40,935 bases of DNA from Alphaproteobacteria bacterium (GTDB lineage Bacteria; Pseudomonadota; Alphaproteobacteria; Micropepsales; Micropepsaceae): assembly GCA_018969785.1 (NCBI GenBank), contig JAGWXR010000006.1, positions 1 through 40,935 on the forward strand, written 5' to 3'. Under the pieces are notes generated by a model, which was not told the DNA's origin, ran no database searches, and saw only the letters and a program-made list of their open reading frames with translations. Both the position numbers and the translations under genes were made by a program. This document shows, in pieces, positions 6,878-37,396 of the stretch (the stretch's first letter is position 1; every line of letters starts with the position of its first letter).

Positions 6878-7813
6878 CTACCTGTTGTGGCCCAGGAGGC
6901 GGCAGATCTCGTCGAGCTGCTCGAGGGTCTTGTAGCCAATCTTGAGTTCGCCGCCCTTCTCTCCCCTGAATGCGATCGAGACGTTCAGGCCGAGCTGCGA
7001 GGCCAGTGACTGTTCAAGCGCCCGGGTGTCGGCGTCCTTGCCGATCGTGCGCTTCTTCTTGCCCTTGACCTTGCGACCCTTTTCCTCGGCCTCGCGCACG
7101 TTGAGGCCGCCGGCGATGAGTTCGCGGGCCATGGCTTCGGGGTCGGGCTGGCCGACCAGGGTGCGGGCGTGGCCGGCGGACAGCTTGCCGGCGTAGATGT
7201 AATCCTGGACGGCCTGGGGCAACTGCAGCAGCCGGATCGTGTTGGCGATGTGGCTGCGGGAGCGGCCGATCACCTGGCCGAGGGCGTCCTGGGTGTAGTT
7301 GAAGCGATCGATCAGCTGGCGATAGCCGCGGGCTTCTTCGATCGGGTTCAGGTCGGCGCGCTGGATGTTCTCGATCAGCGCAACCTCGAGCGCCTCGGCG
7401 TCGGTCAACGCCTTGATGACGACGGGCACTTCGTGCAGACGCGCCTTCTGTGCCGCGCGCCAGCGGCGCTCGCCTGCCACGATCTGGTATTCGTCGGGCT
7501 GGCCGGGAACCGGACGCACGATGATCGGCTGGATCACGCCCTTGTCGCGCACCGAGGCGGCGAGTTCCTCGAGCGCCTCGGGGTCAAAATGCTCGCGCGG
7601 CTGGAACGGATTGGGACGCAGCAGTGCGATGGGCAGCGTGCGGGGCGCGCGCTGCTCGGCGGGGGCGCCGGGAAGAGCTGCGGCCGAGGGTACGGCGGAG
7701 GACTGGCCGGGCTGGCTGTTGCTGGCAGCAAGCACTTCGGACTCCACCTCTCCCAGCAATGCAGAGAGGCCGCGGCCCAGTCCCGAAAACGTTGATTTCT
7801 TTGCCTGTGTCAT
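6878..7813 (-). CDS. parB: Chromosome-partitioning protein ParB
   Basis: GLGRGLSALLGE N-terminus, GERRWRAAQ and ENIQRADLNPIEEA motifs; 4-bp overlap with parA. Confidence 0.98.
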   Translation of the reverse strand: MTQAKKSTFSGLGRGLSALLGEVESEVLAASNSQPGQSSAVPSAAALPGAPAEQRAPRTLPIALLRPNPFQPREHFDPEALEELAASVRDKGVIQPIIVRPVPGQPDEYQIVAGERRWRAAQKARLHEVPVVIKALTDAEALEVALIENIQRADLNPIEEARGYRQLIDRFNYTQDALGQVIGRSRSHIANTIRLLQLPQAVQDYIYAGKLSAGHARTLVGQPDPEAMARELIAGGLNVREAEEKGRKVKGKKKRTIGKDADTRALEQSLASQLGLNVSIAFRGEKGGELKIGYKTLEQLDEICRLLGHNR

Positions 7814-8706
7814 GCTGCCTTACGAGACTTTTCGCGTTGAATGAGTTCACCCGCCAGCTTGATGTAGGCCTGGCTGCCGGCGCTCTTGAGGTCGTAGAGC
7901 AAGGCCGGCAGGCCGTGGCTGGGTGCTTCGGAGATGCGCACGTTGCGCGGTATGATCGTCTGGTAGACCTTTTCGCCGAGGTGCTGGCGGACGTCGACGG
8001 CGACCTGCTCGGACAGGTTGTTGCGCTTGTCGTACATGGTCAGGACCACGCCCTGGATTTCGAGGCCCGGGTTCAGGCTGCCGCGCACGAGGTCGATCGT
8101 GCGCAGGAGCTGGGACAGGCCTTCCAGGGCGAAGAACTCGCACTGCAGGGGAACCAGCAGGCCGTGCGCCGCGGTCATGGCGTTTATCGTCAACAGGTTC
8201 AGCGAGGGCGGGCAGTCGATGAGGATGTAGTCGTAGCTGGTCAGGGTCGCCACATCGCGGGAGACTTCCGTCGAGGCGCTTGCCTCGGCCGGCGGGGCGA
8301 GCCTGCGTGAATAACTGTCCAGCGCGTCTCTTAACCTAAAGGAGCGGCGGGGGACGCCGACCAGCTCCATCTCGGCGCCGGCCAGTTCGGAGGTCGCGGG
8401 AACGACATGGAGGCCCGGGATCGCCGAGGGCACGATGGCCTCCTCGAGGGTCGCATCGCCGATCAGGACATCGTAGACGGATTTCGTGCGCTGGTGCCGC
8501 GAGATGCCGAGGCCCGTGGAGGCGTTGCCCTGCGGATCGACGTCGATCACGAGGATGGCCTTGCCGACCGCGGCGAGCGCGGTTCCGAGGTTTATGGCCG
8601 TGGTGGTCTTGCCAACGCCGCCCTTCTGATTCGCAATCACGATCACGCGCGGCCTGTCGGTGCGCGCGTGCCTCGGGCTCAAGAGGGTTTCCTGGGCTTC
8701 CGCCAC
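7810..8706 (-). CDS. parA: Chromosome-partitioning ATPase ParA (Soj)
   Basis: Deviant Walker A KGGVGKTTTAINL; DPQGNAST; DYILIDCPPSL. Confidence 0.98.
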   Translation of the reverse strand: MAEAQETLLSPRHARTDRPRVIVIANQKGGVGKTTTAINLGTALAAVGKAILVIDVDPQGNASTGLGISRHQRTKSVYDVLIGDATLEEAIVPSAIPGLHVVPATSELAGAEMELVGVPRRSFRLRDALDSYSRRLAPPAEASASTEVSRDVATLTSYDYILIDCPPSLNLLTINAMTAAHGLLVPLQCEFFALEGLSQLLRTIDLVRGSLNPGLEIQGVVLTMYDKRNNLSEQVAVDVRQHLGEKVYQTIIPRNVRISEAPSHGLPALLYDLKSAGSQAYIKLAGELIQREKSRKAA

Positions 8707-11300: not shown

Positions 11301-11341
11301 GGATCTTATTCCGGCTGTCGCGATGATGCGGATTGCCGCCG

Positions 11342-11357
11342 TGTCACACGTGAATCC
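11342..11357. promoter_or_regulatory. parS-like site (TGTCACACGTGAATCC)
   Basis: 12/16 to TGTTTCACGTGAAACA with intact CACGTGAA core; between two other parS-like sites. Confidence 0.55.
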
Positions 11358-11384
11358 AAAGTCCGTGTGCGGAACATCAGTGTC

Positions 11385-11430: not shown

Positions 11431-12780
11431 TCACTTGCCGATGCAGAAGTCGCGGAAGATGACGTCGAGATAATCCTCGACATCGATACGGCCTGTCAGG
11501 CGACCAAGATCGCGGGCTGCCATCCGGATGTCTTCTGCGAGGATGTCGATGCCCGATGCGCGGTGCGCATGGTTGTCGAGGAAGCGCGCGAGGTGCCGTG
11601 TCACCGCATCAAGGGCGTGCCGGTGGCGCGCCCTGGTCAGGGGGGCGGCTTCGGCAGAGCCCGCGCGTGCAACGACTTCGCGAGTCAGCCACGAGACGAG
11701 CGCTTCAATGCCCTGTCCCGTGCGCGCCGAAACATGGAAAACGGGGACATCGCCGGCGCGTGGTGCCGGGGCCTGTGCACCCAGCAGGTCGACCTTGTTG
11801 AGCACGATTGCGTCGGCACCCGGAATGGCCTGCGTCACACGTGAATCCATACCGTCCCCGAGACAGTCGGACACGGCGAGGCGAAGGTCGGCGGCGGCGG
11901 CGCGCGCATGTGCGCGACGCATGCCCTCGGCTTCAATCTCGTCGACCGTGTCCCTCAGTCCAGCGGTGTCGATCAAGGTTACAGCGTAGCCTTCGAGGTC
12001 GAGGTGGACCTCGATGGGATCGCGCGTGGTGCCGGGGATCGGCGAGACGATGGCGACGTCGCGGCGCGCCAGCGCGTTGAGGAGCGAGGACTTGCCGACA
12101 TTGGGGGCGCCGAGGATGACGACGGCGAGGCCATCGCGCGTGATCTCGCCGCTGCGGCTGGCGTCGAGATGACGCTGCAGGTCGGCCCTGAGTGTCGCCA
12201 CCTCGGCGACAACGCCCTCAACGAGGCCTTCGGGGATTTCCTCCTCGGGGAAATCGATGCAGGCTTCGAGGTGGGCGCCCGCCCGAATGAGCGCCTTGCG
12301 CCAAGCGTCGACGCGCTCGCGCAGGCCACCTTCCATCTGCCGCAAGGCCAGGCGCCGCTGGGCTGCGGTCTCGGCGGCGATCAGGTCGGCGAGGCCTTCA
12401 GCCTGCGTGAGGTCGAGCTTGCCGTTGTCGAAGGCGCGGCGCGTGAACTCGCCGGGGTCCGCCGGCCTGAGGCCATCGCAGCAAACGAGGGTGCGGGCCA
12501 GCGCGTCGATAACGGCCCTGCTGCCGTGGATGTGAAACTCGACCGTGTCCTCGCCGGTGAAGCTTGAGGGTGCCGGGAACCAGAGAACGAGGGCGCGGTC
12601 GATGATGTCGCCCGACATGTCCCTGAGCGTGCGCAGCGTGGCTGTCCGCGGTGGAGGCGGCCTGCGGCCTGTCAGCGCCTGCAGGGCGTCTGCGGCCTTG
12701 GGTCCGGAGACCCGGACGATGCTGACGCCAGCCCTGCCACGTGCCGAAGAGAGGGCGAAGATCGTATCCGATCCGGGCAT
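11431..12780 (-). CDS. mnmE: tRNA uridine-5-carboxymethylaminomethyl(34) synthesis GTPase MnmE (TrmE)
   Basis: [26 protein letters not shown]; GTPase [13 protein letters not shown]-terminal FCIGK. Confidence 0.97.
11833..11848. promoter_or_regulatory. parS-like site inside mnmE (CGTCACACGTGAATCC)
   Basis: GTCACACGTGAATCCA at 11834-11849 is a 16-nt exact match to 11343-11358. Confidence 0.5.
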
Positions 12781-12805: not shown

Positions 12806-13093
12806 TTAACCCTTGGTCCTGGTCTTGGGTCCCTCGGGTTCCTTGTCCCGGGTTCCGGAGGGCGCCCATCCGGCAGCGGCAGCCTTGGCGAAGGTCTGGA
12901 AGGCCTCCATGCCCTGTGCCGACCATGGTGCCCATGTCTTCAGCAGCTGTTGCGGGTCGGTCATCGAGAGCGCGTTCATGACCCTGCGCTGGATCTCGGC
13001 CATGACTTCGGCCTGGAGGGGCTCGACGTCCGGCAACCCCATGAAGGCGCGGGCTTCGGCGGGTGTACAATCAACTTCAATTGTGATTTTCAT
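12806..13093 (-). CDS. Small conserved protein, probable DUF6489 family
   Basis: 95 aa [27 protein letters not shown]...; family assignment from memory. Confidence 0.65.
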
Positions 13094-20935: not shown

Positions 20936-21969
20936 GCCGCCGCGCCCTGCATCGCGCACTGGCTGCAGGTGCCCGGGCAGACGCGCTTGCCGGTTCCGCT
21001 GGCCACGCCCGTGCGGCCGAGGTTTGCCTTCACGAGCGCTGCGAGGCCCGCCACGAAGGCCGGGTGGGTTCCGACGGCGGGGACGCGCGCGTAGTGGGGG
21101 ACACCGCTCTCGTGTGCCTTTTCGGCATACTCGATGTCGAGTTCGACGAGCGTTTCGGAATGCTCGGAGACGAAGGCCACCGGCACGATCACGAGCGCCT
21201 TGCCCTCCTTGCCGGCGGCCTCGATCTCGGTCTCGGTCGCCGGACCGATCCACTTCAGGGGGCCGACACGGCTCTGATAGCTGATGCGCCAGTCAAGCCC
21301 GTCGATCGCGAGGGCCGATGCAATCGCTGCCGCGCTCTGCTCGACCTGTGCCTGGTAGGGGTCGCCACCCTTCACGACATTTTCCGGCAGCCCGTGGGCC
21401 GAGAAGAGCACGCGGTACTTCACGCCCTGTGGTACCGAGCCGAGTGTCTCGCGGATGAGGTCGGCATAGGCGTCGACGAAGCCCCTGTCGGTCGCGTAGC
21501 AGCAGAGCGTGAAGGTGGGGGCGTCGAGCTTGCGGGCGCGGGCTTCGGCCTGCCACTCGCGCACGGAGGAGCGCGAGGTGGTGGTTGAGAATTGCGGGTA
21601 AAGCGGCAGCAGGATGATCCTGTCGGGCCGGAAGCGGCGCACCTGCTCGACCACGTCGGCGGCGCGGGGCGAGGAGTAGCGCATGGCCACGAATACCTCG
21701 ACGTGATCGTCGCTGCCCTGCAGGGCGGACTGAAGGGCAGAGGCCTGGTTGTAGGTCTGTCCGAGGATCGGCGAGCTGCCGCCGAGTTTCTTGTAGATCT
21801 CGGTGGCGACGGGTGCGCGCCTCGAGGAGATCAGCTTTGCCACAAGCCACCGCAGCGGGTTCGGCAGACGGATGATCGCCGGATCGTTGAAGAGGTTGAA
21901 GAGAAAGGGCTTCACGTCAGCGAGGGAGCCCGGGCCTCCGAGATTGAAAAGGACGACGGCCGTTCTCAT
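20932..21969 (-). CDS. hemH: Ferrochelatase
   Basis: AVVLFNLGGPGSLADVKPFLFNLFND; LFSAHGLPENVV; C-terminal Cys motif CPGTCSQC. Confidence 0.96.
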   Translation of the reverse strand: MRTAVVLFNLGGPGSLADVKPFLFNLFNDPAIIRLPNPLRWLVAKLISSRRAPVATEIYKKLGGSSPILGQTYNQASALQSALQGSDDHVEVFVAMRYSSPRAADVVEQVRRFRPDRIILLPLYPQFSTTTSRSSVREWQAEARARKLDAPTFTLCCYATDRGFVDAYADLIRETLGSVPQGVKYRVLFSAHGLPENVVKGGDPYQAQVEQSAAAIASALAIDGLDWRISYQSRVGPLKWIGPATETEIEAAGKEGKALVIVPVAFVSEHSETLVELDIEYAEKAHESGVPHYARVPAVGTHPAFVAGLAALVKANLGRTGVASGTGKRVCPGTCSQCAMQGAAA

Positions 21970-23003
21970 CTTGTGGTCCTTATCTGGCTGATCATGCGGG
22001 CCACGTGCTCGACGGGTGTCTCCTGGCGAATGCCGTGTCCGAGGTTGAAGATATGCGGGTGTCCCCGTGTTTCGGAGAGGATTGCCTCGATGGCGCGATC
22101 CTGCGACGGGCCGCCGACGGCCAGAACCATGGGGTCGAGGTTGCCCTGGGTTGCCATGGTTGCGGGGACATGCTGGCGAATGGTCTCAAGCCTTGTCTGG
22201 TAATCCACGCCGATCGCGTTGGCGCCGGTTGCTGCCGCGTAGAGTGGCAGGTGGAGGCCTGCCCCGCGGGGGAACACGATGAAGGGCATCGCGGGGCACT
22301 GGCGGCGCACGGCCTCGATGATGCGCCTGATCGGGTCGACCGAGTAGCGGCTCACGAGGGGGGCTGGGATGGTGGCCGCCCAGCTTTCGAAGAGTTGCAA
22401 GACCTCGGCGCCGGCGCGCACCTGGGCCACGAGGTAGGCGGTGGTTGCCTCGACGAGCGTGTCGACGAGGTGGTCGCATTCGACGGGGTGGGTCGCTGCG
22501 AAGCGGCGCAGGTCCTCGGTTTCGGCGGAGCTGCCGCCGGCGACCATGTAGCTGGCAACCGTCCAGGGAGCGCCGGCAAAGCCGATCAGCGTGACGCCGG
22601 CTGGCAAGTCCGACCGGACGCGCGCCACGGTCTCGGCGATGGGGGCGAGGGCGTTGCCAGCTGCGTGCGGATCCATGCGGGCGAAGTCGGCGGGTCCGAA
22701 GCGCTCGAGCCTCGGGCCTTCGCCCTCGGCGAAGTGCAGGCGCTGGCCCAGGGCGTGGGGGATCACCAGGATGTCGGAGAACAGGATCGCGGCATCGAAA
22801 CCGAAGCGGCGGATGGGCTGGAGGGTTACCTCGGCGGCGAGCGCCGGGGTGAAGCACAGGGTCATGAAATCCCCTGCTTTTGCCCGCAACTGGCGGTATT
22901 CGGGCAGGTAGCGGCCTGCCTGGCGCATCAGCCAGATGGGCGCCGGCGTCACGGGTTGGCCCGCGAGGACCGCGAGGACGGGTTTGATCGACGTCCGGGT
23001 CAC
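21966..23003 (-). CDS. hemE: Uroporphyrinogen decarboxylase
   Basis: PIWLMRQAGRYLPEYR signature, FSDILVIPHALG; GTG start (VTRTSIKPVL) preferred over the extended ORF to 23111. Confidence 0.95.
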   Translation of the reverse strand: MTRTSIKPVLAVLAGQPVTPAPIWLMRQAGRYLPEYRQLRAKAGDFMTLCFTPALAAEVTLQPIRRFGFDAAILFSDILVIPHALGQRLHFAEGEGPRLERFGPADFARMDPHAAGNALAPIAETVARVRSDLPAGVTLIGFAGAPWTVASYMVAGGSSAETEDLRRFAATHPVECDHLVDTLVEATTAYLVAQVRAGAEVLQLFESWAATIPAPLVSRYSVDPIRRIIEAVRRQCPAMPFIVFPRGAGLHLPLYAAATGANAIGVDYQTRLETIRQHVPATMATQGNLDPMVLAVGGPSQDRAIEAILSETRGHPHIFNLGHGIRQETPVEHVARMISQIRTTR

Positions 23004-23381
23004 AGGAAGATCTCTAATTTCATAAGAACATTTATATTTGTTAGGATTTAAGTAGGAAGATGATGGGCGTGTGGACATTTGGGATAGCGGGGCTGTCCTC
23101 GTGTCTTCCACAGAGTGATGCCCATGGGGTCAGTGTTTCCATGGTTGGGGAAAAGTAACCCGATGGCAAGGATTCATTTACCTCTGTGGCGCGGTGGCCA
23201 TGTGGATCAATCGTGTACGGCACGAGGATGCAAAAGGTCGGGATAAGAGCGGCTGGACGACCGGGTCCGGTGGAAAGCGGGTGTACAGACAGGGGTGGCC
23301 GGCTGGGGAAGAAGCTCCTTCCGGGTTGTCCCGGGTCGATGCCCGGTGTTGTGCAGTTGTCATCTACAGAATGATCCTCAG
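23004..23381. other. Candidate chromosomal replication origin (oriC) in the hemE/ppsR divergent intergenic region
   Basis: 378-bp non-coding gap in the hemE-RP001(ppsR) position known for alphaproteobacterial origins; 40-bp ~80% AT tract (23011-23050); degenerate DnaA boxes at 23070-23078 (TGTGGACAT), 23104-23112 (TCTTCCACA) and 23201-23209 (TGTGGATCA); genes diverge from it. Confidence 0.65.
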
Positions 23382-24227
23382 GTGAGTGAGCGGAAAAACA
23401 GCGGCGTTGCCATCTATTTTCATCTTCACCTGGTGTCGGACTCGACGGGTGAGACGCTGAATGCGGTTGCGAAAGCCGCATGTGCGCAGTTCGACATGGG
23501 TCGTCCGCTTGAGCATTTCTATCCACTTGTGCGCAATCGCAAGCAGCTCGAGCGTGCGATGCTCGAGCTCGAGGCGTCTCCCGGGCTTGTGCTCCACACG
23601 ATCGTGAATGCCGAACTGCGCGAGATACTTGAACGGCGCTGCCGGGAATTGTCGATGCCGTCGGTGGCGGTGCTTGATCCGGTCATGTCGAGCCTCGCGG
23701 GCTATCTCGGTGTTGAGGAGAGCCACAGGCCTGGCGCGCAGCACGAGCTTGACGCGCGCTACTTTGCGCGCATCGAGGCCCTCAACTTCACCATGGCGCA
23801 TGATGACGGTCAAAGCCTTTCCAGCCTGAACCAGGCGGACGTGGTCCTGGTCGGCGTGAGCCGTACATCGAAGACGCCGACCTGCATCTACCTGGCAAAC
23901 AGGGGTATCAAGGCAGCGAACATTCCGATTGTTGCCGGCGTGCCCTTGCCGGATGAACTGCACACGATCGACGGGCCGCTTGTGGTTGGCCTGATCGTCA
24001 ATCCCGAGCGTCTGCTGCATATACGGCGCAACCGCCTTCTGTCGCTGCATGAGACGACAGAGACGGATTATGTCGACCTGGATGCCATTCGCGCTGAGCT
24101 GGTCGTGGCGCGAAAGCTGTTTGCCGACAAGGGCTGGCCCGTCATCGACGTGACGCGCCGCTCGATCGAGGAGACGGCTGCGGCCGTGTTGGCCCTCCAT
24201 TCCCGAGTGGAGCCGAAAGTTCCATGA
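23382..24227 (+). CDS. ppsR: Pyruvate, phosphate dikinase/PEP synthase regulatory protein (DUF299, kinase/pyrophosphorylase)
   Basis: FHLHLVSDSTGETLNAVAKA; GVSRTSKTPTCIYLANRGIKAANIPIV; GTG start VSERKNSG. Confidence 0.92.
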   Translation: MSERKNSGVAIYFHLHLVSDSTGETLNAVAKAACAQFDMGRPLEHFYPLVRNRKQLERAMLELEASPGLVLHTIVNAELREILERRCRELSMPSVAVLDPVMSSLAGYLGVEESHRPGAQHELDARYFARIEALNFTMAHDDGQSLSSLNQADVVLVGVSRTSKTPTCIYLANRGIKAANIPIVAGVPLPDELHTIDGPLVVGLIVNPERLLHIRRNRLLSLHETTETDYVDLDAIRAELVVARKLFADKGWPVIDVTRRSIEETAAAVLALHSRVEPKVP

Positions 24228-37238: not shown

Positions 37239-37396
37239 CCAAAGAGTTTTCCACAGACTCTGGCGGATGTGGGGATACCCCGTGGTAAACTACCAGATGC
37301 TGGGTTGATGACGCTTTTGTGAATGAAACATGACATTTGCGTTGCGGGGATGGCCTGTCGAAAATCCTCGCGTCAATGCCGTGGATGTCGGGGCCC

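Follow-up and report, generated by a model that had tools for sequence, protein, structure and literature searches.

The 378-bp gap between the divergent genes hemE and ppsR is very probably a working DnaA-dependent chromosomal origin of the Cori type, a known kind of origin, as judged from its sequence and that of its relatives. The gap lies in a window of 40,935 nucleotides, which is the entire contig G000:C50 of a MAG (2.1 Mb, 210 contigs, 87% complete). The initial annotation had placed a candidate origin here, at the position equivalent to those of Caulobacter and Rickettsia. This assignment is supported by synteny with the mapped Caulobacter origin, by an array of DnaA boxes beside an AT-rich stretch, and by dif, the polarity of the octamer GGGCAGGG and an AT-skew step in relatives, with which the window agrees. 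The gap is read as an origin because it forms the origin end of the ori-dif axis and carries its array beside an AT-rich stretch, as a DnaA origin needs. DnaA would load on strong (G) and weak (W) boxes, arrayed at fixed positions over 23070-23209, and would melt the adjoining AT-rich stretch at 23011-23050, which also seems to hold the hemE promoter. Two forks would then leave, one towards hemE and one towards ppsR, and would meet near dif. The uncultured genus thereby gains a well-supported origin, and the combination of boundary genes, a genus-conserved G/W-box array, dif position and GGGCAGGG polarity provides a recipe for cases where GC skew fails.

Gene order and conservation of the gap

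Seven features (a to g) characterize the hemE-type oriC of Alphaproteobacteria; an origin may lack some of them, and in several members of the class GC skew does not work (PMC1914354). The boundary genes hemE and COG1806 (feature a) are both found here, and NCBIfam matches confirm the divergent hemE and ppsR of the initial annotation. The gene order, with arrowheads giving direction, is leuS-lptE-holA> <parB-parA-rsmG-mnmG-mnmE ... <rho-hemJ-hemH-hemE, gap, ppsR-maf-aroE-coaE-dnaQ> <secB, timA-mltA-smr>, hslUV, hisBHAF. The heme/rho and ppsR-dnaQ blocks thus diverge from the gap, as had been described. Compared with the window, the order from leuS to hemE and from ppsR to the his genes is unbroken in three congeners. 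Among the ppsR loci taken from 30 genomes, 27 have a divergent hemE adjoining ppsR. The gap length falls within the 200-1000 bp of feature b and varies little in the genus (366-404 bp), as does its GC content (0.50-0.54), despite a HemE identity of only 54-60%.

Several other observations were made in this neighbourhood. parAB is located at 6878-8706, and the canonical parS core GTTNCACGTGNAAC is missing from 10 of the 11 genus genomes, where parS may have diverged; parS was consequently discarded as a guide to the origin. Two near-identical copies of GTCACACGTGAATCCA, which could be a parS variant, occur at about 11341-11358 (mnmG/mnmE interval) and 11832-11849 (within mnmE). A small DUF6489 gene (12806-13093, minus strand), between mnmE and a DUF255 gene, is very well conserved across the genus.

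The aligned genus gaps share conserved blocks at constant spacing: TTTATAG, GTAGGAAGATGATGGGCGTGTGGAGAATTGGGACA, TCCCCAGGGTCATGCCCAGGGG, TCCACATTTGGGGA, ATGTGGAT, TTCAAAGCTTGGGA, TTGCAT-17-TCTTAT, TTCACA and GATCCTCAG. A profile of these gaps finds one match in each of 10 of the 11 genus genomes, always at hemE/ppsR, and elsewhere among 195 genomes just marginal partial matches (E 0.005-0.04). When the window copy is excluded from the profile, the sole match in the window is 23027-23380 (E 7e-36). Between the window and the congener G002, the gap is conserved with a z of 20.9, compared with 1.8-10.2 for four noncoding controls (feature f); towards the congeners G001 and G003 its conservation is weak.

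DnaA boxes, AT-rich stretch and promoters

The features of the gap are collected in Table 1. In Caulobacter, the high-affinity G-box TGATCCACA and the W-box TCCCCA have been defined (PMC4285127), and both of these Cori elements are present in the gap. Three near-consensus DnaA boxes on both strands had been annotated initially. All three exist, but only that at 23201-23209 is an exact known high-affinity box, the other two having two mismatches to TTATCCACA. The count of three also undersells the array, as about five G/W sites hold fixed positions across the genus. In gap coordinates, the first is TGTGGA at 67-72. Most members then have TCCCCA at 104-109, replaced by TCCACA in the window, and most have either TCCACA or TCCCCA at 135-139. 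TGGGGA follows at 143-148, except in G010, G001 and G003, and TGTGGA recurs at 197-222.

Table 1. Coordinates of the boundary genes and of the features identified in the gap (window positions).
Feature	Position	Strand	Remarks
hemE, uroporphyrinogen decarboxylase, left boundary gene	21966..23003	-	GTG start at 23003; TIGR01464 E 1.9e-109, above curated cut-off
hemE-ppsR intergenic element, probable origin, 378 bp	23004..23381		single-copy conserved element
AT-rich stretch, putative DNA unwinding element, overlapping hemE promoter region	23011..23050		8/40 G/C
Conserved TATAAA within AT-rich stretch, likely -10 of hemE promoter	23031..23036	-	TTATA invariant in 8/8 aligned genus sequences
DnaA box 1 ATGTCCACA	23070..23078	-	TGTGGA core at same place in all genus gaps
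DnaA box 2 TCTTCCACA	23104..23112	+	position where most congeners carry W-box TCCCCA
W-box TCCCCA, conserved position	23146..23151	-	site search and genus comparison
GANTC (GATTC), CcrM-type site	23171..23175		near this position in 7/10 genus gaps
DnaA G-box TGATCCACA	23201..23209	-	TGTGGA core kept in all genus gaps; G-box sequence from PMC4285127
Second W-box TCCCCA of window copy	23304..23309	-	site search
Likely ppsR promoter; genus consensus TTGCAT-17-TCTTAT, diverged in window copy	23324..23352	+	conserved alignment block
Weak DnaA-box-like site TCATCTACA	23360..23368	+	several congeners have ..TTCACA there
ppsR (DUF299/COG1806), right boundary gene	23382..24227	+	GTG start at 23382; NF003742 E 1.1e-100, above curated cut-off

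Seven sites of the gap lie within two mismatches of TTATCCACA, against a shuffled mean of 1.15, and none of 300 shuffles reaches seven. Summed over nine genus gaps, the figure is 46 against 9.45 in shuffles (maximum 18). In the same nine gaps, TCCACA occurs 22 times for 2.6 expected, and TCCCCA 18 times for a shuffled mean of 3.8 (maximum 12). The TCCCCA enrichment was scored before the identity of this motif with the Caulobacter W-box was known (PMC4285127) and hence constitutes an unplanned confirmation. The DnaA sites of feature c1 are thus present at the level of motifs, most of them degenerate. Two more exact copies of TGATCCACA are found in the window, both inside genes, and an individual box therefore carries little weight. 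The gap is the densest 378-bp box stretch of the window, with seven sites against four at the next independent places (feature d); the G002 copy is not the single densest stretch of its sampled 1.29 Mb. Clusters of TTATCCACA in G002 were rejected as a guide, just six scattered copies being found.

Among other binding motifs, the IHF consensus WATCAN5WTR (feature c2) occurs neither in the gap nor in nine genus gaps, where a diverged site may exist. CtrA sites (TTAA-N7-TTAA) show no excess: one with two mismatches lies at 23037-23051, and the window total is 12 for 13.7 expected. Of 10 genus gaps, 7 carry a GANTC near gap position 158-181. In the window as a whole, GANTC is about fivefold depleted (42 against 200 expected; 32 to the left and 9 to the right of the gap), as might be expected under CcrM-type methylation. 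As for DnaA itself, three congeners encode a second near-full-length copy (G001:C3:8234-9553, G002:C2:1928-3241, G004:C262:3604-4914), and shorter proteins matching only its N- and C-terminal parts are encoded on G005:C9, G006:C153, G008:C184 and G010:C94.

The GC content of the gap is 0.53, compared with about 0.65 in its flanks. The 40-bp stretch with 8 G/C reported in the initial annotation was recounted and found correct, and no 40-mers of the window are richer in AT than those around 23011-23015, of which the lowest in G/C (7, at 23015) overlaps this stretch. The raised AT content of feature e is therefore found both in the gap as a whole and in this most AT-rich 40-mer. No RNA gene was detected in the gap by Rfam matching.

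Two conserved blocks of the gap look like the promoters of hemE and ppsR, namely TATAAA towards hemE and TTGCAT-17-TCTTAT towards ppsR. They would be explained by a mere divergent promoter region in which the DnaA sites regulate transcription and no origin exists. This reading is very improbable, as neither promoter needs the central G- and W-box blocks at 23070-23209, other noncoding intergenic regions of the block show weaker conservation than the gap in the comparison with G002 (z of 5.6 for rho-hemJ), and the axis defined by dif and KOPS points to the gap.

Segregation axis and strand asymmetry

dif was located by pattern; an E. coli-like probe missed it in this family, where the alphaproteobacterial form of the site gave matches. 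The four complete family genomes have dif within 84 kb (G020), 171 kb (G040), 52 kb (G045) and 144 kb (G046) of the point opposite hemE/ppsR, i.e. 1.2-3.4% of the genome, and it is roughly opposite hemE/ppsR in three class relatives as well. FtsK takes its direction from KOPS octamers, which are oriented from the origin towards the terminus (PMC2680272). GGGCAGGG, the FtsK-guiding octamer, is the most polar on the hemE/ppsR-to-dif axis, ranking 1 of 9,008 in G020 and 1 of 11,375 in G002. Counts of GGGNAGGG towards dif and away from it are 77/19 in G020 and 66/18 in G002; the axis, with dif opposite and a KOPS switch at the locus, is thus observed in relatives, and the window itself contributes a count of 8/1. 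The sites are too few in G001 (4/7) and G003 (8/9). With the terminus fixed at dif in G020, the best origin falls at 170-210 kb, hemE/ppsR being at 194 kb, and on contig C21 of G002 the KOPS converge on dif. This polarity is not a by-product of base composition, since the GC skew of G002 contig C17 predicts the opposite KOPS strand on the hemE side. In G045, a member of genus g5, no KOPS switch occurs up to 50 kb from hemE/ppsR; the gaps of g5 are short (about 200 bp), and this genus may have drifted.

On contig C17 of G002, the best KOPS switch is at 246-260 kb and the gap at 274 kb, the switch thus lying 14-28 kb to the ppsR side (44 against 41 of 57 sites). In the window, four DnaA-box-like sites cluster at 37247-37364, starting in the intergenic region before a CYTH/CHAD-domain gene. 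Both would suit an origin near the gap but outside it, within about 30 kb on the ppsR side. Such a location is hardly probable: the KOPS difference amounts to three sites, the 37-kb cluster begins in a 98-bp intergenic region and has four sites against the seven of the gap, and hemE/COG1806 is the origin site used by other Alphaproteobacteria (PMC1914354). The neighbourhood of dnaA was also discarded as an origin, as no skew switch occurs at dnaA on G002 C17 and dnaA lies about 400-450 kb from dif in three g5 genomes.

In G020, the AT skew at fourfold sites reverses at both hemE/ppsR and dif. In the ppsR orientation, it steps at the gap in the same, expected direction in the window (-0.16 to -0.28), G001 (+0.02 to -0.15), G002 (-0.03 to -0.11) and G003 (-0.03 to -0.12). 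Of 362 genes in G002, 61% are directed away from the gap, a bias not seen in the first 50 kb, and G001, G003, G020 and g5 likewise show no local orientation bias over that distance. The gene-orientation and KOPS tests treat sites as independent and are to that extent generous.

The GC skew behaves differently and is the sole surprising part of this locus, the other origin markers being mostly present. A cumulative skew over the window's own genome is impossible, the MAG being in 210 contigs. The raw skew is positive along the entire window. At fourfold sites, where plus- and minus-strand genes were averaged to remove the transcription component, it is +0.21 to the left and +0.23 to the right of the gap. 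Around the gap, the skew has a single sign across 603 kb of G002 and across 120 kb of both G001 and G003; a shift at the gap (feature g) is thus absent in the window as in these three congeners. The method does detect origins, since in four Kiloniella loci taken as positive control the skew is about -0.2 on the flank of hemE and reverses to about +0.15 to +0.28 on that of ppsR. Inversions were ruled out as the cause, the gene order being intact on both sides. A GC-skew minimum elsewhere had been named in the initial annotation as a ground for abandoning the origin, and formally this objection applies, with one sign on both sides of the gap. Yet on contig C21 of G002, the GC skew passes dif as well without reversing, so in this genus it does not mark the ori-ter axis and is invalid as a guide to the origin. 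This strong one-signed skew across hemE/ppsR and dif differs in sign between species of the genus. GC-skew-based automated calling would misplace the origin here.

A GC skew that runs unchanged across the gap in four genus members, and a window plus strand that is G-rich and T-rich on both sides, might also be expected if the gap were an ancestral origin, no longer the main start, with forks that start elsewhere and cross hemE/ppsR one way, leaving a one-sided G-/T-rich strand. Contig C10 of G002 would offer such a start, with an origin-type GC-skew sign change between 140 and 250 kb. At G002:C10 140001-250000, the GC and AT skews change sign together within one chromosome arm and KOPS polarity is unchanged. 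A move of the origin to this segment was ruled out as far as the ori-ter axis is concerned, since KOPS do not switch there (0/1, 0/3, 0/3, 0/3, 0/2, 1/4) but do so at hemE/ppsR and dif. Demotion of the gap to an ancestral origin is quite unlikely, given also that the GC skew ignores dif on C21, that the AT-skew step persists at the gap in all four genus genomes, and that the element is still conserved box by box.

With the gap retained as the probable working origin, the candidates for the one-signed G-/T-rich asymmetry are a dominant fork direction, extra initiation sites and a non-replicative asymmetry. KOPS and dif report the segregation axis and not the fork direction, and are therefore compatible with an unusual replication mode. 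It is conceivable, if unlikely, that strand asymmetry in the genus has another source than two symmetric forks from hemE/ppsR. Most forks would then cross the origin region one way (because a single fork dominates, the replichores are strongly unequal or initiation is frequent elsewhere), with segregation still following the hemE/ppsR-dif axis. If so, replication and segregation polarity would be uncoupled in a bacterial main chromosome.

Comparison with known origins

The closest counterpart is the origin of Caulobacter crescentus, mapped experimentally at hemE (PMC1914354). The gap shares with Cori (hemE - CC0001/COG1806; PMC1914354, PMC4285127) its boundary genes, size class, an AT-rich stretch of about 40 bp, the exact G-box TGATCCACA and W-boxes TCCCCA. 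In both, the AT-rich stretch is on the hemE side and contains a hemE promoter-like -10. The gap is nevertheless not Cori in detail: whereas Cori has five CtrA sites (TTAA-N7-TTAA), the gap displays no excess of these, no IHF consensus and no chromosome GC-skew reversal.

The origins of Rickettsia, Wolbachia and Ehrlichia near hemE (PMC1914354) resemble the gap by their hemE boundary, length of 200-1000 bp, DnaA boxes, raised AT content and greater likeness among close relatives, but those were found with IHF sites. In Wolbachia, the skew pattern disappeared as the genome was rearranged; here, local synteny is preserved and the skew, though strong, is one-sided. In Sphingopyxis and other Sphingomonadaceae, the hemE cluster was likewise used to place oriC (PMC4741004); that prediction rests on Ori-Finder and synteny, while the genus-level element and the dif and KOPS tests are from this work. 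Finally, the unidirectionally replicating chromids of Pseudoalteromonas (PMC7858055) also have a GC skew without the usual bipartite reversal. Their dif adjoins the origin, whereas here dif is opposite hemE/ppsR and KOPS polarity is bipartite.
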